Positions 14,658 through 42,702 of a stretch of DNA of 64,000 nucleotides are shown piece after piece (position 1 is the first letter of the stretch; every line of letters starts with the position of its first letter). Location of the stretch: NCBI GenBank assembly GCA_026709535.1, contig JAPOST010000081.1, positions 1 through 64,000 on the forward strand, written 5' to 3'. Source of the DNA: Rhodospirillaceae bacterium (GTDB lineage Bacteria; Pseudomonadota; Alphaproteobacteria; Bin65). The position numbers were made by a program, and so were the translations under genes. A model generated the notes under the pieces. The model saw only the letters and a list, made by a program, of their open reading frames with translations. It ran no database searches and had not been told where the DNA came from.

Positions 14658-15506
14658 ATGGCGATGCCTAGCTTCACCATGCGCCAGTTGCTTGAGGCTG
14701 GCGTGCACTTCGGACACAATACGCGCCGCTGGAACCCAAAGATGGAACCCTTCATCTTCGGTGCTCGCAATAACGTTCATATCATCGACTTGCAACAGAC
14801 GGTGCCGATGTTGCACCGGGCCATGAACGCCCTGCGCGAAGTGGCGGCTGCCGGCGGACGGGTATTGTTCGTCGGTACCAAACGCCAAGCTTCGCGCATG
14901 ATCTCGCAATCCAACGAGCGCTGCGGACAATTCTATGTTGATCATCGCTGGCTGGGCGGGATGCTGACCAACTGGTCCACGATACAACGATCGATTGCGA
15001 GATTGAAAACGGTCGACGCACAATTGTCGAGTGAGGAGGAAACACAAGGCCTGACCAAGAAGGAAATGCTGCAACTGACCCGTGAAAGAGACAAGCTGGA
15101 GCGAGCCCTGGGCGGGATCAAGGATATGTCTGCGCTCCCAGAGATCATCGTCATCATTGATACCAACAAAGAAGCGATCGCCGTTGCCGAAGCCAACAAG
15201 CTGAAGATTCCCGTCATCGCAGTGATCGACAGCAATAGCGATCCGAAGGGCATCGATTATCCTGTGCCCGGCAACGATGATTCACTGCGTGCGATTGAGC
15301 TGTATCTTGATCTGTTCTGGGGTGCCGTTCTCGACGGCCTGGCGCAAGAAGTGGCCCGGACCGGCGGAGATATTGGCGAAGCCGAGGTGACGCCCTCCGA
15401 AGAACTGCCGACGGCTGATGCCGGCTTGGAAGCGGACACAATTGTCGCGAACCCAGACGCCACCATATCCGATGGTGGCGCGAAGCCGGACGCAGTGACG
15501 AGATAA
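14658..15506 (+). CDS. rpsB: 30S ribosomal protein S2
   Basis: [49 protein letters not shown] at 14658 preferred over the 14454 ORF start. Confidence 0.96.
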
Positions 15507-15575
15507 TTCTGAGTCGCGTTTCACGAACCGCATTGACGCGGCGACCGCCAGACAACCAATCCACAAGAGGACAAG

Positions 15576-16499
15576 ATGTCACAGATCAGCGCATCAATGG
15601 TAAAGGAACTGCGTGAACGCACCGGAGCCGGCATGCTGGACTGCAAAAAGGCGCTGGTCGAGGCCGACGGTGACGTCGAAGTTGCCAGCGAGTGGCTCCG
15701 CAAGAAGGGTTTGGCCGCCGCCGCCAAGAAAAGCGGCCGGATAGCAGCAGAAGGTCTGGTTGCCCTGCGGATCGACGGCGACAGGGGCGTGCTGGTCGAG
15801 GTGAACTCGGAGACCGACTTCGTTGCACGCAACAGTGGCTTCCAGTCGTTCGTCAGCCAGGTTGCCGATCTGGCTCTGTCCGTGAACGGCGACATGAGGG
15901 CCTTGAAAGCCACGGGCTATCCAGGTTGCGACAGGACGGTAGAAGGCGAGATGACCAACCTGATTGCGACAATCGGTGAGAATATCGCCCTGCGCCGTTC
16001 AGCGGGCATCACGGTTGATCAGGGCTTCGTCGCCTCGTACATGCACAATGCCGCAGCACCCGGTTTGGGCAAGATTGGCGTGCTGGTTGGCGTGAAGTCT
16101 GCCGCCGACCCGGAAACCTTGCAGGCTTTAGGCAAGCAGATGGCGATGCATGTAGCGGCAAACGACCCCCAAGCCGTTGGAACGAAAGATCTCGACGTTG
16201 CTGCAGTCGAGAAGGAACGCGACATCCTGCGCGAGCAGGCCGCCGCCAGCGGAAAACCGCCCGAAATTGTGGAAAAGATGATTGAGGGCCGGATTCGTAA
16301 GTTCTACGAGGAGGTCGTGCTTCTGAATCAGACTTGGGTGATCGACGGTCAGTCCAAGGTTTCGGAAATAGTTGAATCGACATCCAAGGAGCTTGGCGAG
16401 TCGATTGAGATTACCGGCTTTCTGCGCTATCAGCTTGGCGAAGGCGTCGAAAAGAAAGAAGATAATTTCGCGACCGAAGTGGCGCAGCTTACAGGCTGA
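15576..16499 (+). CDS. tsf: Elongation factor Ts
   Basis: [37 protein letters not shown]. Confidence 0.96.
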
Positions 16500-16564
16500 T
16501 GAGCTTCTCGCCAGATACGGGCGTTCCGATCGCGCGTGCAAGACAATCGAGGAATTAGACGACC

Positions 16565-17284
16565 ATGAAGGATGAACCGAAATACCGGCGAGTCCTTCTG
16601 AAGCTTTCCGGCGAAGCACTGATGGGTCATCGAAACTTTGGTCTCGATTCCAATACACTGGAGCGTATCGCCGCCGAGGTAAAGTCTATCCGGGATATCG
16701 GTATAGAAGTGTGCCTCGTGGTCGGCGGCGGCAATATCTTTCGCGGTATCCAGTCGGCGGCGCACGCCATTGAGCGGGCAACCGGAGACTATATGGGAAT
16801 GCTTGCCACGGTGATGAACTCCTTGGCAATCCAAGGCGCGCTTGAACAGTTAGGCGTACAAACCCGGGTCCAGTCCGCGATTCCTATGTCAACGGTCTCC
16901 GAACCTTACATTCGCCGTCGCGCCGTTCGACATCTTGAAAAAGGTCGGGTAGTGATCTTCGCAGCCGGCACTGGAAATCCCTTTTTCACTACCGATACAG
17001 CCGCCGCGCTACGCGCTTCAGAAATGACTTGTGATGCGCTGTTCAAGGGCACCAAGGTGGATGGCGTCTACACCGATGATCCCGTGACCAACCCGGACGC
17101 CAAGCGCTACCAAGCACTCACTTTTTCGGATGTCCTGAGTCGCGATCTGAAAGTGATGGACACCACCGCCATTGCCTTGGCCCGGGAAAACGGTATCCCG
17201 ATTCTGGTCTTTTCCATTCAGCGGACCGGATCCATCGCCGAGGTCGTTCACGGTAAGGGTGAATTCACGATTATTTCTGAATAG
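16565..17284 (+). CDS. pyrH: UMP kinase
   Basis: [43 protein letters not shown]. Confidence 0.96.
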
Positions 17285-17382
17285 GGCGTTCCCCCGACAC
17301 GCCATTCTGATAAAATCGTTGCCGGGAGACGCCGCATCAACACGCTGGCAGAAGGCGCCAACAAGAATGAGGAGGCTGAACC

Positions 17383-17940
17383 ATGATTGACCCGATCCTC
17401 AAGGATATCAAACGTCGAATGGATGGCGCGATGGCAGCGTTTCGCAACGATCTGGCGGGCCTGCGCACCGGTCGAGCAAACACCAGCTTGCTGGAGTCGA
17501 TTAGCGTTGAAGCCTACGGCGCCCAGATGCCGATGAAGCAGGCCGGCAATATTTCGGTACCCGAGGCCCGGTTGTTGTCAGTCCAGGTCTGGGACGTAAA
17601 TCTCGTTGGTGCCGTCGAAAAGGCCATCCGCGAATCCGATCTTGGGCTTAACCCGCAGACGGAAGGGCAAGTAATCCGGGTTCCGCTGCCGGAACTGACG
17701 GAGGAGCGGCGCAAGGAACTGGTCAAGGTTGCGGGCAATTATGCGGAGCAGGCACGAGTCGCCGTGCGCAATGTCCGCCGTGATGGCATGGAGCGGTTGA
17801 AGAAGGCTGAGAAGGCAGGTGACATCTCTCAGGACGAACAACGCGCCCGGTCGGAAGACGTTCAGAGGACGACCAACGAGCATGTCAAGGATATTGATGA
17901 TCTCCTCGCCCAGAAACAGGGCGAGATAATGCAAGTTTGA
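17383..17940 (+). CDS. frr: Ribosome recycling factor
   Basis: [42 protein letters not shown]. Confidence 0.96.
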
Positions 17941-17949
17941 GTAGTGCTG

Positions 17950-18681
17950 ATGGAAGCGGTCTCGCCCCAAGCCATAACAGAAGCGCCACCTCGTCATGTC
18001 GCCATCATCATGGATGGTAACGGGCGGTGGGCGGCAGCCCGCGGGTTGCCCAGAACCCAAGGACACCGTCGTGGCGTTGAAGCCGTCCGGCATACGGTCA
18101 AGGCGGCGATCGCGGCGGGGATCGGATTTCTGACGCTGTACGGCTTTTCTTCAGAGAACTGGAAGCGCCCGGCTGCCGAGGTGAAGGAACTGATGAGGCT
18201 GTTACGGTTTTACTTGCGCAGCGAAATCGCAGAACTGCATAAAGAGGGAGTCAAGATCCGTTTCATCGGCGATCGCTCTCGTCTCCCGAAAGACATCATC
18301 AAGTTGATTGAGAGCGCCGAATTGCGAACGGCAGGAAATGATACGCTGACTCTGGTCATTGCCCTGAGCTACGGCGGTCGCGACGAAATTCTTGGAGCCG
18401 TTCGGCGCCTGGCGTCTGATGTGATCCGGGGCGCTGTCGATTTGGAAGCGATTTGCGAGGAAGAATTTTCACGTCACCTTTTGACCAACGACATTCCGGA
18501 TCCAGATCTGGTCATTCGCACTAGTGGTGAGCAACGCCTCAGTAATTTCCTGTTATGGCAGTCTGCCTATGCCGAACTGGTTTTTACCAAGTGCCTGTGG
18601 CCTGATTTCGATGCTGAGGCGCTGTACGCAGCAGTTTCCGAATATTGTCAACGGGAGCGCCGCTATGGCGCTGTTGTATAA
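17950..18681 (+). CDS. uppS: Undecaprenyl diphosphate synthase (di-trans,poly-cis-decaprenylcistransferase)
   Basis: [49 protein letters not shown] at 17950. Confidence 0.95.
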
Positions 18682-19546
18682 GCCCGGAACGGCATCGGAT
18701 TTTGCTATCGCCGTTCGAGTAACAGGTCAGGTGTCCGGCAGCGGGCGAGAAATGTTGGCGCGAACCGTTTCTTCGCTCGTTCTTTCGTCGATCTTGATTG
18801 CCTGCCTTTATTTCGGCCGACCATTTTTTCATTTGCTGGTCTTTGGTGCGGCTGGCCTGATGGCATGGGAGTGGGCGAGACTATGTGGCCGCGGCGCAGT
18901 GGGGGCAGGGGGTGCTGCCGTGCTGCTCGGCTGCCTTGTCGTGGTCGTTTTGGCCACCTTCAAGGTGAATGGCGGAGCGTCTTTGGCTTTGATTCTGGCA
19001 GCGTTGACAGCCGCTTTGATCGGGCGGCAAAAGACATTCGGTGAGTCGGCATGGCTGGGGGCGGGCGTGATCTATGTTGGCGGCGGCGCCTGGGCAGCCA
19101 TCGCCTTATATGACCAATTCCAGAACGGCGTCTGGGTCGTGGTCTGGGTTTTCTGTGTAGTCGCCTTCACCGATATCGGCGCTTTTCTGGCCGGGCGCGT
19201 GCTGGGTGGTCCCAAATTGGCGCCGCACGTCAGCCCTCGGAAGACTTGGTCCGGATTCTTTGGGGGTCTTTCCTGCGCCGCGTTGTCAGGACTTGTATTT
19301 GCCTTGGCTGCTGATCGCGACGCAGTTGGCTTCCACATCGCGGCTGCGCTGGTCGTCAGCCTGGTCGCCCAAGTGGGAGATTTGTTTGAATCCCTGCTGA
19401 AACGACGGTTTGAAGCCAAGGATTCGAGTAGCCTGATCCCGGGGCATGGTGGCTTTCTGGACCGGGCTGACGGCCTTATCTCAGCAATGATCGTAGTCGC
19501 ACTGCTGGCTTGGTGGCGCGGCGGAGTGGAGACACCATGGATTTAG
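18665..19546 (+). CDS. cdsA: Phosphatidate cytidylyltransferase
   Basis: Polytopic, C-terminal signature [12 protein letters not shown]...[36 protein letters not shown]; overlaps uppS 3' end. Confidence 0.93.
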
Positions 19547-20727
19547 CATTGCCTGAAACACCCGGTGAGCCTCGTCGGATTACCATTCTTGGCGCAACGG
19601 GTTCGATCGGCGAAAGTACGCTGGATCTGGTTTCCCGCCAACCAGACGCATACTCCGTAGAAGCCTTGACAGCCTATCAGAACGTTCCCTTGTTGGCGAA
19701 ACGGGCTAAGCGCTTCGGGGCGCGGTTGGCCGTGATCGGCAATTCTGACCTTTACACCGATCTAAAGGAAAACCTGGCCGGAACCGGTATCGATGTGGCG
19801 GCCGGCGCCGCGGCGATTGCCGAGGCTGCAGCGCGTCCGGCAGACTGGATAATGGCTGCAATCGTGGGTGCCGCCGGGTTGAAGCCGACGTTGAACGCAG
19901 TGCGTCAGGGAAAAATAGTCGCTTTGGCCAACAAGGAATCCCTCGTGTGCGCCGGCAACCTCGTCCACGCAGAAATCCAGCGATGCGGCGCGACGTTGCT
20001 ACCCGTCGATTCGGAGCACAACGCCATCTTTCAGGTTTTCGACTTCGAACAACCTGAACGCGTGGAGCGCATCATTTTGACAGCATCAGGCGGACCTTTT
20101 CGGTCGTGGAGTCAAGAAGCAATGGCCGCCGCGACGCCTGCGCAAGCCGTGGCGCACCCGAATTGGGATATGGGAGCCAAGATTTCCGTCGATTCCGCAA
20201 CCCTCATGAACAAGGGACTGGAGGTCATCGAGGGGTGGCATTTGTTCCCGGTCGAAAAAGATCAGATCAGCGTTGTCGTTCATCCGCAATCGGTGATCCA
20301 CTCCATGGTCGAATATGTCGACGGGTCGACGTTGGCGCAGATGGGTTCACCCGACATGCGGACACCTATTGCCTATACCATGGCTTGGCCGCGCCGCATG
20401 GCCACGCCGTCTCCAAAGCTGGATCTGACCGCCATCCGCTCGTTGACTTTCCATGCGCCGGATCGTGAGCGCTTTCCAGCCCTCGATCTGGCCTATGCCG
20501 CCTTGCAGGAGGGAGGCTCCGCGCCAGCGATCCTGAATGCTGCCAACGAAGTTGCAGTCGCAGCGTTCCTTGAACATCGTATCGGATTTCTTGAAATAAC
20601 CGAAATTGTAGGAGAAACGCTGACGCGGATGTCTGGCGGCTCCATTTCTTCGATCGAAGAAGTGATAGCAGTCGATCAAGAAGCGCGTAACACCGCAGAA
20701 GACTTGATTGCGAATTTATCAAAATAG
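19537..20727 (+). CDS. dxr: 1-deoxy-D-xylulose-5-phosphate reductoisomerase
   Basis: RRITILGATGSIGESTLDLV, VDSEHNAIFQ, DMGAKISVDSATLMNKGLEVIE. Confidence 0.95.
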   Translation: MDLALPETPGEPRRITILGATGSIGESTLDLVSRQPDAYSVEALTAYQNVPLLAKRAKRFGARLAVIGNSDLYTDLKENLAGTGIDVAAGAAAIAEAAARPADWIMAAIVGAAGLKPTLNAVRQGKIVALANKESLVCAGNLVHAEIQRCGATLLPVDSEHNAIFQVFDFEQPERVERIILTASGGPFRSWSQEAMAAATPAQAVAHPNWDMGAKISVDSATLMNKGLEVIEGWHLFPVEKDQISVVVHPQSVIHSMVEYVDGSTLAQMGSPDMRTPIAYTMAWPRRMATPSPKLDLTAIRSLTFHAPDRERFPALDLAYAALQEGGSAPAILNAANEVAVAAFLEHRIGFLEITEIVGETLTRMSGGSISSIEEVIAVDQEARNTAEDLIANLSK

Positions 20728-20891
20728 CCAAATAATACCTTAAGTTGACATGAATTTTTTTGTGAATAAATATTTTCTCGTAATGATTTACTTATGTCAA
20801 GTTACCTTTGTAATTCCCAAAGATATCCCATCTTCCGCCAAGCGCGGTTTCAAGGAATGCTGGTGACAACTGGTTCAATCAATTAATAACG

Positions 20892-20925
20892 GGAATTAGT
20901 GCTTTGATTCTAAATTACTAATTCC
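20892..20925. repeat. Perfect 9-bp inverted repeat GGAATTAGT...ACTAATTCC in AT-rich dxr-rseP intergenic region
   Basis: GGAATTAGT 20892-20900, ACTAATTCC 20917-20925. Confidence 0.6.
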
Positions 20926-21003
20926 TCATCAAACCTAAGTCAGGGAAAGTAGGCAACAGCAAAAACCTGCTCCTTGGCGCACCCTTGATCAGGTCATCGT
21001 TCA

Positions 21004-22395
21004 ATGGAATTCATTGCGGTTCTCTGGACTTACGTCCTTCCATTTTTCATCATCTTGACGGTGCTCGTGTTTGTCCACGAGTGGGGTCACTATCATGTCG
21101 CCCGCCGGAACGGCGTGAAGGTGGAGGTATTTTCCATCGGGTTTGGACCGGAACTGTTCGGCTGGAATGACAAGATCGGGACGCGCTGGAAATTCTGCAC
21201 CATTCCCCTTGGTGGATACGTAAAGATGTTTGGTGACGCTGACGTCGCGAGCCAGTCAGATGACACGGTCCGTTCCATGACCCGGGAAGAAAAGAAGATC
21301 AGCTTTCATCACAAGACCGTCGGACAACGCTCGGCGATCGTTTTTGCCGGTCCCTTCTTCAATTATGTCTTTGCAGTGCTAGTCTTCGCCCTTCTGTTCA
21401 TGACTGCCGGCCAGCGGCATACGCCCGCGATTGTTGGACACGTTCTTGCTGGCAGCGCGGCAGAGAATGCCGGACTGCGGGTTGGCGACCTGATCGTGGA
21501 ATTCAACGGTCGATCGATCGAACGTTTCGAGCAAGTCGAACAGCTGGCACTGCTCCATCCAGGCGAGGCATTGCCGCTTATGATCCGACGCGGCGCCGTT
21601 GGACGCGCGCTGACCCTGACGCCAGAACCACGCATGATCCCCGACAAGCATGGCAACGAGCAGGAGTTCGGGTTTCTGGGCGCCTGGCGCATGGTGGCGC
21701 CAGTGGTCGGTCGAATCCTGGACAATTCTGCCGCTGCCGATGCCGGACTCTCCAGCAACGACCGCATACTGAGTATTGATGGCCAGAGGGTCGCCACTTT
21801 CCAGGAGGTGCGCAAGATCATCGTCGCCAACCCAGAAAAGCCGATGGCCATGCGAGTTCTGCGAGATGGTCAGGAAGTAACGCTGACTGTTGTGCCAAAG
21901 AAACACGACTATACCGACTCCGACGGTATTAAGCGCACTGTCGGTCAGCTGGGAATCGGCGTTGCGCCGCCGCCCAAAAAAGTGTACGCGCCATTAGCCG
22001 CAATGTGGGCTGCGGTGAAGGAAACTTGGTTCCTGACGACCACGACAGCCACTGCGATCCATCAGATGATCGTGGGTAAACGAGAGTTCCGTGATTTGGG
22101 CGGCCCCCTGCGCATCGCAGAAATGTCCGGCGACATGGCGCAAATTGGGCCGTATGCCTTCGTCTGGTTCATGGGCGCCTTATCGCTCTCTCTCTGCCTG
22201 ATCAACCTTGTTCCGGTGCCAATGCTGGACGGCGGACATCTGTTGTTCTATGGAATCGAAGCGATTCGCGGCAAACCTTTGGGACCTAAGGCCCAAGAAT
22301 ATGGTTTTCGTATCGGAATGGCTTTGGTATTAACGTTGATGGTCGTTGTAACGTGGAACGATTTGCTCCGACTGTTCGGAGCACACAATTCGTGA
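21004..22395 (+). CDS. rseP: RIP metalloprotease RseP (site-2 protease, two PDZ domains)
   Basis: HEWGH zinc motif, PLGGYVKMFGD, NLVPVPMLDGGHL. Confidence 0.94.
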   Translation: MEFIAVLWTYVLPFFIILTVLVFVHEWGHYHVARRNGVKVEVFSIGFGPELFGWNDKIGTRWKFCTIPLGGYVKMFGDADVASQSDDTVRSMTREEKKISFHHKTVGQRSAIVFAGPFFNYVFAVLVFALLFMTAGQRHTPAIVGHVLAGSAAENAGLRVGDLIVEFNGRSIERFEQVEQLALLHPGEALPLMIRRGAVGRALTLTPEPRMIPDKHGNEQEFGFLGAWRMVAPVVGRILDNSAAADAGLSSNDRILSIDGQRVATFQEVRKIIVANPEKPMAMRVLRDGQEVTLTVVPKKHDYTDSDGIKRTVGQLGIGVAPPPKKVYAPLAAMWAAVKETWFLTTTTATAIHQMIVGKREFRDLGGPLRIAEMSGDMAQIGPYAFVWFMGALSLSLCLINLVPVPMLDGGHLLFYGIEAIRGKPLGPKAQEYGFRIGMALVLTLMVVVTWNDLLRLFGAHNS

Positions 22396-34234: not shown

Positions 34235-35452
34235 TTGACTGCCCGAGCCGCAACCAATCATGCCGAATTTCCGCAATACAAGCGGAATATCAGCCTTCTT
34301 TTCGTCTGCTGGGCGCTCGCCAGCACCTCCATGATGCTTGTCGTAACGGTGACTGCACTGGTAGGGGCCAGTCTGGCTGAGAACAAGGCATTGATGGCGC
34401 TGCCGATCGCGATCCAGTGGTACGGCTCAGCCTTTTTTACCGTCCCCGCCAGCTTCATCATGGTGCGGGTCGGGCGCCGCAATGGCTTCCTGCTGGCAGC
34501 GGGATGCATGTGTATAGGCTCCGGCCTGGCCATACTGGCAATCTTTGAGGGTAGTTTTCCTCTCTATTGTCTGGCCAGTTTGCTGGTCGGATTTGCCACC
34601 GGCTTTCAGTGGTACTACAGGTTTGCGGCAGCTGAGGTGGTGCCGGAATCTTTCCGCAGCAGGGCTATTTCGCTGGTCTTGGCCGGTGGCGTGGTCGCGG
34701 CCATCATTGGTCCGACTCTCGCACTTTACTCCGTCGATTGGCTGGCGCCGGTGATGTTGGCCGGCGCCTACGTTGCCGTGATTGGTCTGCAGTTTGTGAT
34801 CATGCTGATCATGCTGATGGTCAATATTGCGAAGCCGCCGAAAATGGCGCTGCGTGGAGGCCGGCCGCTGATGGAAATCGCCAAGCAGCCAAAGTTCATG
34901 CTGGCGGTGGCGGGTGGCGTCATCGGCTACGGCATCATGGTGCTCCTGATGTCGATCACGCCCAAGGCCATGGAGATGTGTGGACTGGACTTTGCCGAAG
35001 CGACCCAGGTGATTCAGTGGCATGTTCTGGGAATGTACGTACCAGCTTTCTTCACCGGTCATCTGATCAAGAAGTTCGGGCCACAACGTATCATGCTTGC
35101 AGGCGGCATGCTGAATGTCGCCTGTCTGATCATCGCAATGTCCGGTATCGCCTTCGAGAACTTTCTGGTAGCTCTCCTGCTGCTGGGCGTTGGCTGGAAT
35201 TTCCTCTATACAGGGGCGACGACCCTCCTGACGGAAACCTACACGGTCGCAGAGCGCGCCAAGACCCAAGCGTTGAATGAGTTTCTGGTATTCACTTTCG
35301 TGGCGACGGCGACCTTCTTTTCTGGCGTGACGCTACAATACTACGGCTGGCAAAATCTGGCGATCGGCGTCCTGCCGCTTCTGTTGATCGTACTGGCGGC
35401 TACTGTATGGATCATGATGTTTTCAAACCGCCGCGCGCAAGCAAGTAGCTGA
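34235..35452 (+). CDS. MFS transporter
   Basis: 12-TM-like hydrophobicity, RVGRRNGFLLAAG loop 2-3 motif; TTG start. Confidence 0.83.
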   Translation: MTARAATNHAEFPQYKRNISLLFVCWALASTSMMLVVTVTALVGASLAENKALMALPIAIQWYGSAFFTVPASFIMVRVGRRNGFLLAAGCMCIGSGLAILAIFEGSFPLYCLASLLVGFATGFQWYYRFAAAEVVPESFRSRAISLVLAGGVVAAIIGPTLALYSVDWLAPVMLAGAYVAVIGLQFVIMLIMLMVNIAKPPKMALRGGRPLMEIAKQPKFMLAVAGGVIGYGIMVLLMSITPKAMEMCGLDFAEATQVIQWHVLGMYVPAFFTGHLIKKFGPQRIMLAGGMLNVACLIIAMSGIAFENFLVALLLLGVGWNFLYTGATTLLTETYTVAERAKTQALNEFLVFTFVATATFFSGVTLQYYGWQNLAIGVLPLLLIVLAATVWIMMFSNRRAQASS

Positions 35453-35715
35453 AAATCATCCGCTTCTAGCCATGATCCGCGTCGTTGATTGCTGTGCGCG
35501 GTAGCTTGTTCAGTTGCCATCCTCTCGCAAATGATGAAATGGGCGCCCCTTAGGACGGTATCGCGAGGTGCCAAGTTGATGGTGTCGCAAATACTAGGAA
35601 AGGAAAGAGTGCGTCTACTCTCCATCGCTAAATCCCCTTTTCCAGACCGGTTTTTCTTGAGAATTTCAACCAGAAGAAATTAACTAAAAAAAGTAATTAT
35701 ATCAATGTTTTATGA

Positions 35716-38700
35716 TCAAGTTTCTCGATCTTCTTCATCAATGACGATACGAAGGTCCGCGATGTGCGTGTTGGTGAAGTATACGCTCACCGGTCGATCA
35801 GCGAGAGTGAGTGCTAATTCATTTCCATCAAGGGCAAGAAACAAATCCTTCATGCCCTCTTTTGAGGCGTTGGCATGCCTGAACATCGCCGCGTGATTGG
35901 GGCATAGTGCGAGGTAGTTCTGGAAGTGGTGCCTTTTGAGCTCGGGCAGAAACTCGACTGCTTCGAAATAATAGCGTCCATCGGCGAGCTTAAAGGGTAG
36001 TCGGATCCGACACGCTTGGCAGATCGTTTCGCCATCCGTATTGGTATAGAGATCGCGAAGGTAGGGATCGGTATTTTCCTTCTTGACCGCGTCTCGGTCC
36101 ACCGAGACTGACCGTTGACGCTTCTCTTTACTGCGCCCGGGTGCTTTACGAGCTTTCTTTCGAAACGATTCCGCTCTTCGGTCAGGGTTGCGCGGTTCGT
36201 GCGTTGGCAGGCTGGCGGGGCTGGTGTGCTCTGCAAGGATTTTCTGACGGGTGTCGCGTGACAGTTCGGCAAATCGTCTCCCGTCGGCAAGGGCAGCTTC
36301 ATCAGTAAATCCGAGTTCGTCAGCAATATACTGGGTTCTGCGATGTTGTGCGGCGCGTTCTTCGGTTTCCGCGCCGAAGTGGATGGCAGCAAGCCAGGGC
36401 CAGTCGGGATCGAATGGAAAGTCGTCCGGCAGCAGATCTCTCGCGGCCTTGGCGGGGCGAACGAATTCGTTGTCCCGCTGCGGAATCCAGACGGCGTTGC
36501 GCAACTGGTGAACGAGCTGGGATTCGGCGTCGCGCGGGCAGTTGGATCGATTGCGCCGATAGATCGCTTTCAGGACGGTTTCGTCGTCCGATTTGTCTGA
36601 AAGAGTATTCCAGACGAGACGGGAAAGTGCCAGGCTCGGTGTATCGAACAAGACTTGTAGCCTGTGGATCTTGAAGTCGCAGTCGATCCCCGTTTGAGTC
36701 CACATTGACCCCGGGGCGCTATGCAAGTGAGCCCTCTCGGGATTGTCGGAGCAACTGACAGGTGTGATCTTAAGGCGGTCGGCTACGCCGCATGTCTGGG
36801 CGAAGGAGACGAGTTTTGCCGAAAAGTCGATCGTCCGGTAACTGTCGGATAATGCGACTCGATCTGCATCCGCTGCGAGCGGTCCGTAGTAGGCTTCCAA
36901 ACCGGTTTCGATGTGGGGAGAATCGAGGTAGAGGCTGCTCGGTTGATACCAGAGACGGTCCGCCCCCTGAAGGATAAAAAAGTCCACGAAGATGTCGCTT
37001 GCGCTCTTGTTCTTTTCGACGAGCGAGATGAAGCGCCGTAGGTCGGATACATAGATATTCCAGGAAGGGATGCCTTCGGGGTCCGCGTAGCGCCGTTCGA
37101 GGATAGCCTTGATCTGTTCGCGTTCTCCCACTTCGCTGACGCCGATGCCCTCCAGAAACGCCCGGGCGTGTTTCTGCTCGGTCTTGGTTCCTCCACCTGC
37201 GTACGTGTCTTTCGCCACGCGAGGATGGATGGAGTCTTCGCGTGTCTCCAGGGTAGGGAAATAGCATTCGCTGCCTGTTCCGTATTGGCCGTCCGAGCGT
37301 CTTACGATGCAGATCTGATTGAATCGATCGAGATCATCTCCCATCTCCCGGTGAAAGAGCGCATACAGTGCACGGTGCCACCCCGGCGGCTTTTGGCGCA
37401 TCCAGTCGAGAAATTGTTGATCGGGTGCATGCTTCCAATCCCGTGTTGCGCAGCAAAACCGTCGCCGGTTGGAGAAACGCTCGTCCAGCGTTTTCACGAA
37501 TTTTTCTACCCCCCATTCCTCGATATCGAGATCGCTCAGGAAACGATCGACCCGGTTGTTCCTTTGCGTGGCTGCGATTGCCCAATCGCGTTGGTCATCG
37601 TCGCTATCGGTCAGGAAGCGGATATCCTCGCCGTCAAGCAGGTTCTTCAATCCAGCCTCAGCCTGCAGCAGGAGACCGGCCGGCGCATGGCCGCTGGTAT
37701 GCTTTGGCGTCAGCGGCTCTTGATTCATCGCTTCAAAGATGGCGTCCCGAATCGGCGCATACGGAGCCGGAATTTCGTCGTGACTGTTCGGCAAGACGTC
37801 CAGAAACTCGCGGTCGAGCAATCCGTAGTCGCAGATAGTGAATAGCGACTGCGCCGCGAGTTTTGCAAGCTGCTGGAATAGTGGTTTATTCGTCGGCGTT
37901 TCCTTGATGCTAGAACGGCTAAGTTCCGGAACGAAGGGAGCATGGAGATGGAAGTGCAGGTATGAGGTCTCTTTGGCTGCAGTGAAGTAGACCGCAACGC
38001 GTCCCGGTTTAGCCGGAACAATGCGGAACTGTTCGGCGAAACGTCCGCGTGTATCAGGCAACTGCTCTCGGAACCGCGGCTCGAGTTCGAACGCGATGGC
38101 GATGTGCTGGTGTTCCAGCCCGTCGACTGGTTCGCGGAAGCGGAGGAAATGCGAGCTATCGGTCCGTCCGCCGTCGATCTCGCGAAGAATCTCCAAGTGG
38201 TGATCCGAATGCGGAATTCGGAGCAGCCGGCCTTCGCGGCCACCGTCAATTCGCCACTGAATCTCTTCGAGGTGGGACAGGAACAGCAGGGTGTTGTCGG
38301 ATATCTCCTCCAGACCGGCTTGGATCTCGGTGACAGCTTGATCTTGCGGCTTCTTCCCGGAATTGAAGGGGAATTCAAATCGCGTGCGCTCACCTAGCTC
38401 CGAATGCGACGGAATCTCCGAGGGGAGCACCATTTCGGAAATAGCAAAGGAATAGCTTGGTGACCAGATGCGCGGCGTGTCCGTGTAGGGGAATACGGCC
38501 TTGAAGCCGATGCCGAAGCGGCCGATCTGCTCCTCGTCCTGGGCTTTGGTGCCTTCGCCAATATCGGTAATGCCCCTTATGTCCTGTTCGTCGAAAGTTC
38601 GTCCGTTATGCTCGAAGACTAGTCTGTCCGAGGAAAGGATGAAGGCTACCGCTGACGCCTGCGTGTCCTCGGCGTTCTGAAGCAACTCGTAGATGAAATG

Positions 38701-38808
38701 CGCGTTATCGGGATACAGATCCTCCACGATTCGCCGAATTCCGGCATGGTTTTTCAGGACTCGAGCTAGATCCTTTCTGTCACGGTGAACCCGCTCGATC
38801 ACGCTCAT
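35716..38808 (-). CDS. Sacsin-like GHKL (Hsp90-type) ATPase with C-terminal HNH-like Cys/His module
   Basis: 1030 aa; Bergerat-fold motifs YELLQNAEDTQ (N box), DIGEGT (G1), GRFGIGFKAVF (G2); C-terminus CQAC-(x36)-CPNHAAMF resembling an HNH/zinc finger. Confidence 0.8.
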   Translation of the reverse strand: MSVIERVHRDRKDLARVLKNHAGIRRIVEDLYPDNAHFIYELLQNAEDTQASAVAFILSSDRLVFEHNGRTFDEQDIRGITDIGEGTKAQDEEQIGRFGIGFKAVFPYTDTPRIWSPSYSFAISEMVLPSEIPSHSELGERTRFEFPFNSGKKPQDQAVTEIQAGLEEISDNTLLFLSHLEEIQWRIDGGREGRLLRIPHSDHHLEILREIDGGRTDSSHFLRFREPVDGLEHQHIAIAFELEPRFREQLPDTRGRFAEQFRIVPAKPGRVAVYFTAAKETSYLHFHLHAPFVPELSRSSIKETPTNKPLFQQLAKLAAQSLFTICDYGLLDREFLDVLPNSHDEIPAPYAPIRDAIFEAMNQEPLTPKHTSGHAPAGLLLQAEAGLKNLLDGEDIRFLTDSDDDQRDWAIAATQRNNRVDRFLSDLDIEEWGVEKFVKTLDERFSNRRRFCCATRDWKHAPDQQFLDWMRQKPPGWHRALYALFHREMGDDLDRFNQICIVRRSDGQYGTGSECYFPTLETREDSIHPRVAKDTYAGGGTKTEQKHARAFLEGIGVSEVGEREQIKAILERRYADPEGIPSWNIYVSDLRRFISLVEKNKSASDIFVDFFILQGADRLWYQPSSLYLDSPHIETGLEAYYGPLAADADRVALSDSYRTIDFSAKLVSFAQTCGVADRLKITPVSCSDNPERAHLHSAPGSMWTQTGIDCDFKIHRLQVLFDTPSLALSRLVWNTLSDKSDDETVLKAIYRRNRSNCPRDAESQLVHQLRNAVWIPQRDNEFVRPAKAARDLLPDDFPFDPDWPWLAAIHFGAETEERAAQHRRTQYIADELGFTDEAALADGRRFAELSRDTRQKILAEHTSPASLPTHEPRNPDRRAESFRKKARKAPGRSKEKRQRSVSVDRDAVKKENTDPYLRDLYTNTDGETICQACRIRLPFKLADGRYYFEAVEFLPELKRHHFQNYLALCPNHAAMFRHANASKEGMKDLFLALDGNELALTLADRPVSVYFTNTHIADLRIVIDEEDRET

Positions 38809-41800
38809 TCTGTGTCGCTCCCGGTCACCTCAAGGACGCCTTCGACGACCAGGGTGGTGTGAATGTCGGCGCTGTCCGCCAGTCTCTGTAGATCTTCAAT
38901 CCGCCGCTCATAGTCATAGTTGGCGCGCGCCAGTTCGCCCTCCTTCATTCGGCGGATATTCTCGTTGGTTGCGCTGTCGATCTGGTCCTCCAGCAGCTTG
39001 CAGCGGGCTTGATGACTGACTGTGAAGCTCTGTTCCCGGTACTGGACAAGATCACGGTTTTCGGCCATGTGGTTTGCTCGCGCTGCTCGCCACAGTTCGT
39101 GATGCCGCTCGTCAAGAGCATCTATCTCGGCAGCATCGGGCGTTTCGGCAGGAGCATCAGCAGCCTTTTCCAGAAGAGACATCACAGTGCCATCAAGCTT
39201 CGAATCCGAGGCTACGGCCACGAGAGAGTCGTCGGGCCGGACGCCGACTTTGCGCCACTGGTATACGGCGAAAGGGTAGTCACCCTTTGGGACTGCCTTG
39301 CTCGCTACGGTCAGATTGACTTGCACAGCATCCGAGCGTTCAAGATGCCGGGCCGCTTGGCGAACGAGGGGATGAAGAACGTTGAGATGGACAGCCCTCT
39401 GCTCCGTAGCGGCGGTTTCCTGGTCGAACGTGACAGATAGCAACGGCTCGGCGCCCCTAAGCCACCTTTCCCACTGTCGGGCCACAGGATCAGTGGAGCG
39501 AGGCAGTCGGCGGAAGTCGTCCAGAAGTCTGGTGCGCAGTTGCTGGCCTAGTCTCAGCGTTTTGAGCGGCCTATCGCCCATGAGAAATCCGCCGCCGGTG
39601 TTGGAAATACTGGACAAGTAGCGGGAGACGCACCGTTGCAGGGCTTCAGGAGAGAGCCAGAAATTCTCGGCCTCCGCTATCTCCTCGCGCCAGGACTGGT
39701 TGGGGACCGCTAGGCCGAACAGCTCCGCCTGCTTCTCTTCCAGTGCGGTCTCTTCCTGGACTTGGCGGATCTTGTTGTCGCCGAGTTGCTGTAGCCGTTC
39801 GGCGCGCTGTTCCGACGTGAGCGTGAAGCTCTCGGCGATGTTGTGTATCTCCCGCGTGATCTCGCCGAGGATTTCCTCGCTGCCGCCGACTGCATGGTGG
39901 AACACACCGATGCGCATCAAGCAGCGTTCATAGATATCGGCATCGACCGTACCCGGTGTGATAAGGTTGACGATCGCTACGCTCTCGCTCTGCTGGCCGT
40001 AACGGTCGATACGGCCGATGCGCTGCTCAATACGCATGGGATTCCACGGCAGGTCGTAGTTGATCAGCAGGTCGCAAAATTGAAAGTCGAGGCCTTCACC
40101 GCCGACCTCTGAGGAAAGCAACACGTCCAACGCCTCCGGATCGTCCTTGGGCAGGGCGAAACGGTGGCGCAACTCTGAGCGCTGCTCATCGGGGATGCCG
40201 CCGTGCACTAATCCGTAGCGCAGCCCCGCGTGCGCAACGTGATTCTCGATATACGCGAGCGTGTGCCGGAAGGTACTGAAGGCCAGAGCCTTGTTGTTGG
40301 CCATCCGGTGTTTGTCCTGCAAGACCTTGACGAATGCCTGCACCTTGGGATCGACGGAATCGAGATTGTCGGCCATGTCCAGCAGCGCTTGGATATCGGC
40401 CCGGATTTCCGCAAGGAACTCGCCGTCGACGGAGGTTTCGCTGTCGATGTCGTCCGTCGCTTCGAGACTATCGAGCCTTCCGGCGAGTATGTCGCGCAGG
40501 AGAGGGGCGAGGCCGTAGAGACAGCTTGCTGCCTGACGACGGATCGTGGTCATCATGAACTTGACGTTCTGCTCGCCGTGAACACGTGCTAGGATGCGGC
40601 TCACGACGTCGAGCAGGCCGTCATGCAACTGACGCTGGTCGGGTGTGAACTCCACCGTGAGCGTTTCGGGTTGGCGGGTCGTGAACTCGCCAATATCGCG
40701 CCGACGAGTCCGGTTGATCATGGGGCTGAAGGTGTAGAGTTCCTCAAGCGATCGGACGAGACGGACGCGGTCCTTGTCATCAATCCTTTCTTCCGCCAGT
40801 TGGTCGTAAGCGTCCTGGAACGCGGGAGCCTCACGCAGGAACAGTCGGCCCCATTCGGTCTGCGCTGCCTCTTCCAAGCAGGAACGGGCCTCATTCCGCC
40901 AGCCCTTCTCAGCAGCGCGGCAATGGCCAACGGCGGCGTTAATGAACCCGTTGGGCGCAGCCATCTGCTCGAAGCTCGTCCGGTCGATGACAAGATCAGG
41001 GCGCAACACATTGAGCAAGGTGAATAGATCCTGGCTTCCCAGCTGAACCGGAGTGGCGGTAAGAAAGACGGCGGCTTGGGCGTTGTCGCAGAAATAGCGC
41101 ACGGCCTGGTGGAGGTATGTGTCCGCGTTGCGGATGTGATGCGCCTCATCGACGATCACGAGATCGAACCTGGGCGGCGGGTCGAGGGCAAGTAGGCCTT
41201 CGTCGGTTCGCGAACCTCTTCTGTCTCTGCCGAACAGGAGGTCAGAGTCGAACAGCGAGAACGGGACGATCACTCTCGAGTGCCGGTCGGGCCATTCGCC
41301 CTCGAGATGCGTTTCTCGCAAGCAGTGACGCAGAGTTCGACCGTCGAGTGCCTCGAAATGTTCGTCGAAGCGCTTCATTTCCAGGAACCATTTGCGCTCG
41401 GAAACCAATGCCTTGGGGCAGATGATCAGCACCGAAGAAATGTCCATTCGAGCCCGCAACTCCCTGACTATGAGTCCGGCTTCGATGGTCTTGCCGACGC
41501 CGACCTCATCGGCAATCAGCAGGCGCGGGCGGTCGGCTCTGATCAATCTTAAGACGGGACGATATTGGTACGGCACGAATTGAACGCGCCCTGATCGAAG
41601 CGAATAGAGGTTGGCAGTAGACGGCGACAGCAAATGGAAACTGGTGATATAGGCTCGCAGGTCACGGGCGGTGAGCAAGGAGGGTTTGTCAGTCGTTTGG
41701 AACGGCTGAAGTTGGCTCTCGTAATAGGTCGCCTGACGATTGTGCTGAAACACTCGGTAGCGGGTCTCGGCGGCACCGGCTACGATACCGATGATCGGCA

Positions 41801-42383
41801 TTGCGGTGTCGGGATTGGAGCGCAGAGCGACCAGTTCGCCGACGCTGAACAAGGCATCACCTGATCTGGTGGAGACGGGTGCTTCACTGGCTGCCGATTG
41901 GGCTGATGGTTGCCCTTCCTCATGTGTCGCTTCCCGAACCGATCCATTCGGAACCATTGCCGCAAGTGCCGCCGTCCTTGCTTTTTCGACAGTTGCCAGC
42001 GAAGCATCTTCCGCCTCCAGCATGTTCAGCAGCCGGCCAAGGGTATCTGCATCGCGGAACTGTTCGCTCGCAGGAGACTCCTCGATTGATGCATGCGCCC
42101 ACCTGTTTCGCGCTGTCTGAAGCTCCCTGACCCAGTTTCTTCCTTCTCGCGGCATCCGGAGTCGACCCGACAGATCGAACCAGTTCTGGTCAAGAATCCG
42201 AAGTAGAGCGGCGAGATCGAGTTGCTCCAGTCGCTTGTAGTCTCGTTCCTGTACTGTTCGCTGTTGCTGGAAGGTGAGATGACCTACGACCTGTTTCTCC
42301 CACCAGTCGTCCGAGATGGCTGGCAGATGCATTGTGAGGAACCGCACGAGTTCGGCCATTGCGATGCGGACCAGATCATTCAT
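38805..42383 (-). CDS. SNF2/RapA-type helicase with N-terminal Swt1-like HEPN domain
   Basis: 1192 aa; HEPN motif RNRWAH; Walker A LLIADEVGVGKT; DEAH (VIVDEAHH); motif VI RIEQRIGRIDRYGQ; 4-bp ATGA overlap with the downstream GHKL gene. Confidence 0.85.
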   Translation of the reverse strand: MNDLVRIAMAELVRFLTMHLPAISDDWWEKQVVGHLTFQQQRTVQERDYKRLEQLDLAALLRILDQNWFDLSGRLRMPREGRNWVRELQTARNRWAHASIEESPASEQFRDADTLGRLLNMLEAEDASLATVEKARTAALAAMVPNGSVREATHEEGQPSAQSAASEAPVSTRSGDALFSVGELVALRSNPDTAMPIIGIVAGAAETRYRVFQHNRQATYYESQLQPFQTTDKPSLLTARDLRAYITSFHLLSPSTANLYSLRSGRVQFVPYQYRPVLRLIRADRPRLLIADEVGVGKTIEAGLIVRELRARMDISSVLIICPKALVSERKWFLEMKRFDEHFEALDGRTLRHCLRETHLEGEWPDRHSRVIVPFSLFDSDLLFGRDRRGSRTDEGLLALDPPPRFDLVIVDEAHHIRNADTYLHQAVRYFCDNAQAAVFLTATPVQLGSQDLFTLLNVLRPDLVIDRTSFEQMAAPNGFINAAVGHCRAAEKGWRNEARSCLEEAAQTEWGRLFLREAPAFQDAYDQLAEERIDDKDRVRLVRSLEELYTFSPMINRTRRRDIGEFTTRQPETLTVEFTPDQRQLHDGLLDVVSRILARVHGEQNVKFMMTTIRRQAASCLYGLAPLLRDILAGRLDSLEATDDIDSETSVDGEFLAEIRADIQALLDMADNLDSVDPKVQAFVKVLQDKHRMANNKALAFSTFRHTLAYIENHVAHAGLRYGLVHGGIPDEQRSELRHRFALPKDDPEALDVLLSSEVGGEGLDFQFCDLLINYDLPWNPMRIEQRIGRIDRYGQQSESVAIVNLITPGTVDADIYERCLMRIGVFHHAVGGSEEILGEITREIHNIAESFTLTSEQRAERLQQLGDNKIRQVQEETALEEKQAELFGLAVPNQSWREEIAEAENFWLSPEALQRCVSRYLSSISNTGGGFLMGDRPLKTLRLGQQLRTRLLDDFRRLPRSTDPVARQWERWLRGAEPLLSVTFDQETAATEQRAVHLNVLHPLVRQAARHLERSDAVQVNLTVASKAVPKGDYPFAVYQWRKVGVRPDDSLVAVASDSKLDGTVMSLLEKAADAPAETPDAAEIDALDERHHELWRAARANHMAENRDLVQYREQSFTVSHQARCKLLEDQIDSATNENIRRMKEGELARANYDYERRIEDLQRLADSADIHTTLVVEGVLEVTGSDTE

Positions 42384-42702
42384 TGGTTGTGCCCTGTCAT
42401 AGCCAACCCATTACTTCCGGATTGTCTGGAAGATTGTTTGCCAGCAAGGCAATGCGCTCGATCAGCGAGCAAACCGCTTTGCCATGAGCTTTTCTTGTGC
42501 ATGTAAGGACTTCAAAAGCCCGCATTATAGCATGATGGCTTTTTGATTTCTTCATTGGTGTTGAAAAACAATGGACCGGCGCACCGACTTCCACAGACGC
42601 CGTAAATTGGACGAGGCGCCCTCAGTGCCAAATTCGCGCGCTACCCAATCGGGTCGGTCATGCTCTAAATCATTGCCTCTGGCATCTACTGGGGACGCTT
42701 CC

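Follow-up and report, generated by a model that had tools for sequence, protein, structure and literature searches.

In a 64,000-nucleotide stretch of a Rhodospirillaceae bacterium genome (assembly GCA_026709535.1, contig JAPOST010000081.1, positions 1 to 64,000; hereafter the window), two long open reading frames (ORFs) lie side by side on the minus strand. Gene 1 (38805..42383) encodes a 1192-amino-acid (aa) protein in which an HEPN domain is joined to an SNF2 motor of the RapA/DrmD type, and gene 2 (35716..38808) encodes a 1030-aa sacsin/Tiamat-like GHKL protein. A preliminary description of this DNA had proposed that the two genes form a candidate undescribed defence cassette, perhaps a self-contained sense-and-kill module. 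Our main finding is that the pair is a horizontally transferred accessory unit, held together across many phyla, and that it is probably an uncharacterised immune system, with a putative anti-phage role suggested by the neighbourhoods of its relatives. The two ORFs, and the ATGA said to couple them, were re-read at exactly the coordinates first given: the stop of gene 1 and the start of gene 2 overlap on the minus strand as GACACAGAATGAGCGTG (38805..38808), an arrangement also seen in pairs of relatives. At 1030 and 1192 codons, and with the strong profile matches described below, the two ORFs are not due to chance. As first described, the pair is embedded among unrelated genes of metabolic or housekeeping type, namely citrate synthase, gltX, MFS or MFS-like genes and acyl-CoA carboxylase. 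A scan for sigma-70 promoters found none and is uninformative.

The N-terminus of gene 1 (residues 14-121; 42021..42344, minus strand) matches HEPN_Swt1 (PF18731) with 49.2 bits, the cut-off being 27.5, and is predicted to fold as a helical bundle. Its catalytic motif, RNRWAH (R92-H97; 42093..42110, minus strand), keeps R92-N93-x3-H97 intact and conforms to R-x4-6-H; RNxxxH is kept in 24 of the 25 aligned HEPN-bearing homologues, the remaining one having Tyr for His. By Pfam match and motif, the domain is thus a Swt1-like HEPN RNase with predicted RNase activity. SNF2-rel_dom and then Helicase_C follow, and together they make up a two-lobe motor (residues about 255-845; 39849..41621, minus strand) in which Walker A (GVGKT, 294-299), DEAH (412-415) and motif VI (QRIGRIDR) are intact; GVGKT, DEAH and R791/R794 are invariant among relatives. 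The claim that an HEPN domain is fused to a complete SNF2/RapA motor therefore stands. RapA, matched by sequence and by fold in PDB, is the best solved relative over almost the whole length of gene 1, the alignment covering about 1000 columns. Before the motor lies a small beta-domain (residues about 182-227; 41703..41840, minus strand), with predicted strands at 184-227, which is kept in HEPN-less homologues and appears to be positioned as the N-terminal domains of RapA are. A second Swt1-type HEPN, scoring 62.5 bits, is encoded elsewhere in the same genome, within an open frame of 1117 aa (G000 contig C87:3041-3367, L114; G, C and L are our handles for genomes, contigs and loci).

Gene 2 begins with a GHKL (Bergerat) ATP-binding domain at residues 24-118 (38455..38739, minus strand), where the N-box ELLQNAED (41-48), HNG (67-69) and IGRFGIGFK (95-103) can be read, and where SACS (PF25794) and P_loop_sacsin match at 78.7 and 97 bits, respectively. 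In the predicted structure (mean predicted local distance difference test score, pLDDT, of 85), the N-terminal part matches the folds of sacsin SR1, MutL and Hsp90; among solved structures, those of SR1 from the human chaperone sacsin (PDB 5v44-5v47) come closest to the GHKL domain, but the common stretch is only about 220-240 residues long, and the middle of the protein has no clear solved relative. The Bergerat core had been described as intact. Indeed, E41 and N45 of the N-box and the glycine-rich lid, IGxFGxGFK, are invariant among gene 2 relatives, but the canonical Asp of the DxG motif is replaced by His67, and His occupies this position in 58 of 60 relatives; because of this replacement, ATP hydrolysis by gene 2 should not be taken for granted. 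Another sacsin-like ATP-binding domain is found in the same genome, in a 1779-aa open frame (G000 contig C189:5156-5491, L005) that is possibly a single-gene Tiamat-like protein.

The C-terminus of gene 2 carries a module with CQAC (930-933) and CPNH (969-972) at 35893..36021 on the minus strand. The HNH-like module first reported at this place is therefore real, and it aligns to the HNH domain of the McrA endonuclease (PDB 6ghc, E 0.0018), with which it shares the CxxC...CPxx treble-clef arrangement. This likeness, together with a weak match to the PADLOC model mREase_IV, would suit a restriction-type module in which the SNF2 motor recruits the tail and the tail cuts invader DNA, as in the kill step of the preliminary description. 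However, the VHH and CPNCH of McrA read AVE and CPNHA in gene 2, so that both catalytic-His positions are replaced, and most paired relatives, with YYFEAV and CPxCAA at these positions, show the same loss; the HNH pattern is matched only in two Poribacteria relatives that have no helicase neighbour (L043 and L065). As the catalytic His is lost in the paired homologues, the tail was rejected as the killing nuclease, and we regard a restriction-type module as very unlikely. The tail looks instead like a McrA-like zinc finger, catalytically dead by its residues, that may still bind DNA. The two Poribacteria proteins (1234-1251 aa), in which the HNH motif is apparently intact, are possibly an ancestral single-gene form.

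The preliminary description left it to comparison whether the two genes stay adjacent across distant genomes. A search of 85,488 species genomes seeded with gene 2 only yielded 64 loci, and the helicase lies directly upstream in the same orientation in 53 of them; two others are cut by contig ends and nine have no helicase there, some of these nine being short contigs and one (L034) having a single gene between helicase and gene 2. The loci come from Pseudomonadota, Actinomycetota, Chloroflexota, Chlorobiota, Planctomycetota, Bacteroidota, Campylobacterota and other phyla, and one archaeal plasmid carries the pair as well, which bears out the adjacency. When plasmid copies and the window are counted, 52 of 57 adjacent pairs are spaced by 100 nucleotides or less, and 21 of the 57 overlap by 4 nucleotides. 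The reverse test, run on 399 genomes of the phylum, gave a consistent picture: outside the window genome, the helicases with at least 50% identity were those of G163, G119, G122 and G195, and all four adjoin a gene 2 sequence or are fused to one. Helicases at 32-34% identity look like other DrmD-like proteins, and at the threshold applied none of them had a match to gene 2. Moreover, pairwise distances of gene 1 and gene 2 are correlated over 49 loci (Mantel r 0.63, the maximum of 2000 shuffles being 0.25), a figure that includes shared host phylogeny, the helicase tree itself mixing phyla. Clustering of 725 neighbouring ORFs for a third core gene revealed no family present in more than five loci.

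Three loci deserve separate mention. Phycicoccus elongatus has two copies of the HEPN-type pair (L057:6301-13153 and 15320-22172), separated by about 9 kb and identical in ORF lengths and scores; either the pair was recently duplicated in tandem or the assembly is at fault. An open frame of 643 aa (L118:564-2492) combines HEPN with portions of the helicase and of gene 2, as though an in-frame deletion had removed what lay between. Finally, a contig of 16.8 kb from human faeces that is labelled 'bacteriophage' but unverified (MT835838.1, L111) holds a complete pair with an HEPN-like domain, and represents phage cargo or bacterial contamination.

The preliminary description made the HEPN domain part of the cassette, but the comparison does not support it as a fixed component. 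Among 52 helicases with a readable N-terminus, 25 have no HEPN domain and no separate copy nearby, as judged with a profile built from the 25 HEPN copies and run over all six frames of the loci; in loci first scored as HEPN-less, this search found HEPN only in a split gene (L010), behind a missed start (L023) and on the phage-collection contig (L111). The presence or absence of HEPN switches at least 4-6 times on the helicase tree. Since about half of the pairs do without it and its label changes so often, the sequences indicate that HEPN is an accessory, modular effector rather than a fixed part of the family. No consistent substitute effector was found upstream of the HEPN-less helicases. 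The Rhizobium and Ensifer pairs (L006, L007 and L008) share a small ORF at that place, annotated at about 176-184 aa, which by eye resembles a sigma-factor-like helix-turn-helix protein.

The pair resides on an inserted segment (35420..42700). In two genomes of the same genus, G005 and G006, the MFS and acyl-CoA carboxylase genes on either side are joined, the homologous stretches being 145 and 120 bp apart, respectively, versus 7281 bp in the window. Two others (G001 and G003) have 1.7-1.9 kb of other sequence at this site, and contigs break there in G002 and G004; G002 carries a divergent, HEPN-less pair of its own at another place in its genome. Gene 2 is present in 5 of the 399 phylum genomes (about 1%), the window's own included. 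Given the empty sites and this rarity, the two genes behave like accessory, horizontally transferred ones. Plasmid copies are found in Rhizobium, in Ensifer (conjugative) and in the archaeon Methanomethylovorans. A search for flanking direct repeats that could mark the ends of the insertion returned only short, chance-like matches. These observations bear on the idea of a housekeeping or stress module, in which a RapA-like recycler of RNA polymerase would work with an Hsp90-like partner. The best solved relatives, RapA for gene 1 and sacsin, MutL and Hsp90 for gene 2, are those that such a module would lead one to expect, but its occurrence in about 1% of the phylum, its absence from most same-genus genomes, the insertion and empty-site pattern, the mixing of phyla on the tree, the plasmid copies and the defence neighbours described below make this quite improbable.

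Both proteins have relatives in known defence systems. The PADLOC model TmtA, which we take to be the Tiamat protein, matches gene 2 at 2.6e-49 through the sacsin-type GHKL ATPase at its N-terminus. Tiamat is a single-gene system, reportedly described by Millman in 2022. The match is partial, pairing gene 2 residues 5-441 with positions 44-485 of the 1486 in the model. The window system differs in having two genes, a dedicated motor and a zinc-finger-like tail, with a helicase adjacent in 53 of the 64 loci. Gene 1 in turn resembles DISARM DrmD over the RapA-like SNF2 motor (residues 182 to 1165; PADLOC DrmD, 7e-114), but reaches only 319 bits against the NCBIfam equivalog cut-off of 610 (NF038317), has an N-terminal HEPN, and has close relatives that are paired with a sacsin-like gene. 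A DISARM locus is defined by a methyltransferase, the DrmA helicase, the DUF1998 protein DrmB and the PLD protein DrmC (PMC9142583). No DrmA, DrmB, DrmC or methyltransferase was present among the scanned flanking genes of the window, as the preliminary description had remarked of the methyltransferase, PLD and DUF1998 partners; with a DrmD score about half the cut-off as well, the pair is not DISARM. It could still be a two-gene derivative of a named defence system, either what is left of DISARM or a subtype of Tiamat that gained a helicase, as the two profile scores would permit. We consider this unlikely, in view of the low equivalog score, the missing DISARM partners, the lack of any third gene recurring across loci, a TmtA match that covers mainly the N-terminal part, and the single-gene nature of Tiamat.

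In PADLOC, the pair is thus visible only as DrmD-like and TmtA-like matches, with no named two-gene system, and on sequence its components have known relatives while the pair itself fits neither DISARM nor, it seems, Tiamat. No system that has been named and consists of this pair came up in the literature and profile searches, whose reach excluded subscription papers, preprints and supplements. Its parts are not all new: the HEPN-SNF2 fusion was already noted in 2013, when WQE_15321, of the Swt1-like HEPN family, was recorded as an active HEPN-SWI2/SNF2 protein in passages of PMC3710099 that describe no sacsin-like partner gene of the kind gene 1 has.

Genes around the relatives provide the link to immunity. 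The immediate neighbours, 104 genes encoding about 200 aa or more, were compared with 102 control genes drawn from 19 arbitrarily chosen regions in genomes of the same phylum. At E<=1e-20 the neighbours matched 128 PADLOC models (PglZ, BrxL, BrxHI, AriA and others) and the controls 8, mostly generic; this contrast overstates the enrichment in independent genes, as PADLOC models are redundant and the control was not taxon-matched. The enrichment is clear, if not quantified. For example, the pair of L034 shares an operon-like array with three such genes, one of type IIG restriction-modification, one DruE-like and one GajB-like; an ABC-three-component system lies near the pair of L006; on the conjugative plasmid of L008 the pair sits beside a RecB-like nuclease; and csa3 and a restriction endonuclease are close to the pair in L110. 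Since the two genes are transferred together, have stayed paired in many phyla and frequently adjoin known anti-virus genes, they are probably an immune system, and we think it fairly likely that they act as a mobile, two-subunit, nucleic-acid-directed defence module. Several points weigh against this: the proposed defence-island association holds for the relatives and fails in the window, where no island surrounds the pair and its own neighbours are metabolic; the contrast of PADLOC models is inflated, as explained above; some gene 2 relatives stand alone (for example L014, L035, L043, L065 and L117); and 25 of the 52 readable helicases have no HEPN.

For such a defence module, we propose the following order of events. 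The RapA/DrmD-like SNF2 ATPase of gene 1 would track along invading DNA, or along a polymerase on it, and the sacsin/Tiamat-like GHKL ATPase of gene 2, with its zinc-finger-like tail, would join it in a complex as an ATP-gated clamp or switch. In the window copy, recognition of the invader may then free the motor-attached N-terminal Swt1-type HEPN RNase to cut RNA, which would arrest growth or translation in addition. In the half of the family that lacks HEPN, the motor and GHKL pair would act alone or rely on a helper from another locus, for instance by stalling or clearing replication or transcription of the invader. It is possible, more tentatively, that the core of the whole family is free of nuclease, the SNF2 motor and an Hsp90/MORC-like ATP-gated clamp silencing or clearing invader DNA mechanically, and HEPN being an optional kill switch that was added or lost on several occasions.

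If the pair is a defence system, it would represent a compact two-gene type found widely in bacteria and on at least one plasmid of an archaeon. With about half of its pairs devoid of a recognisable nuclease, the family would then directly test whether a motor and a GHKL clamp suffice for immunity, and a prokaryotic ATPase of the sacsin type would become part of a tractable system of two proteins.

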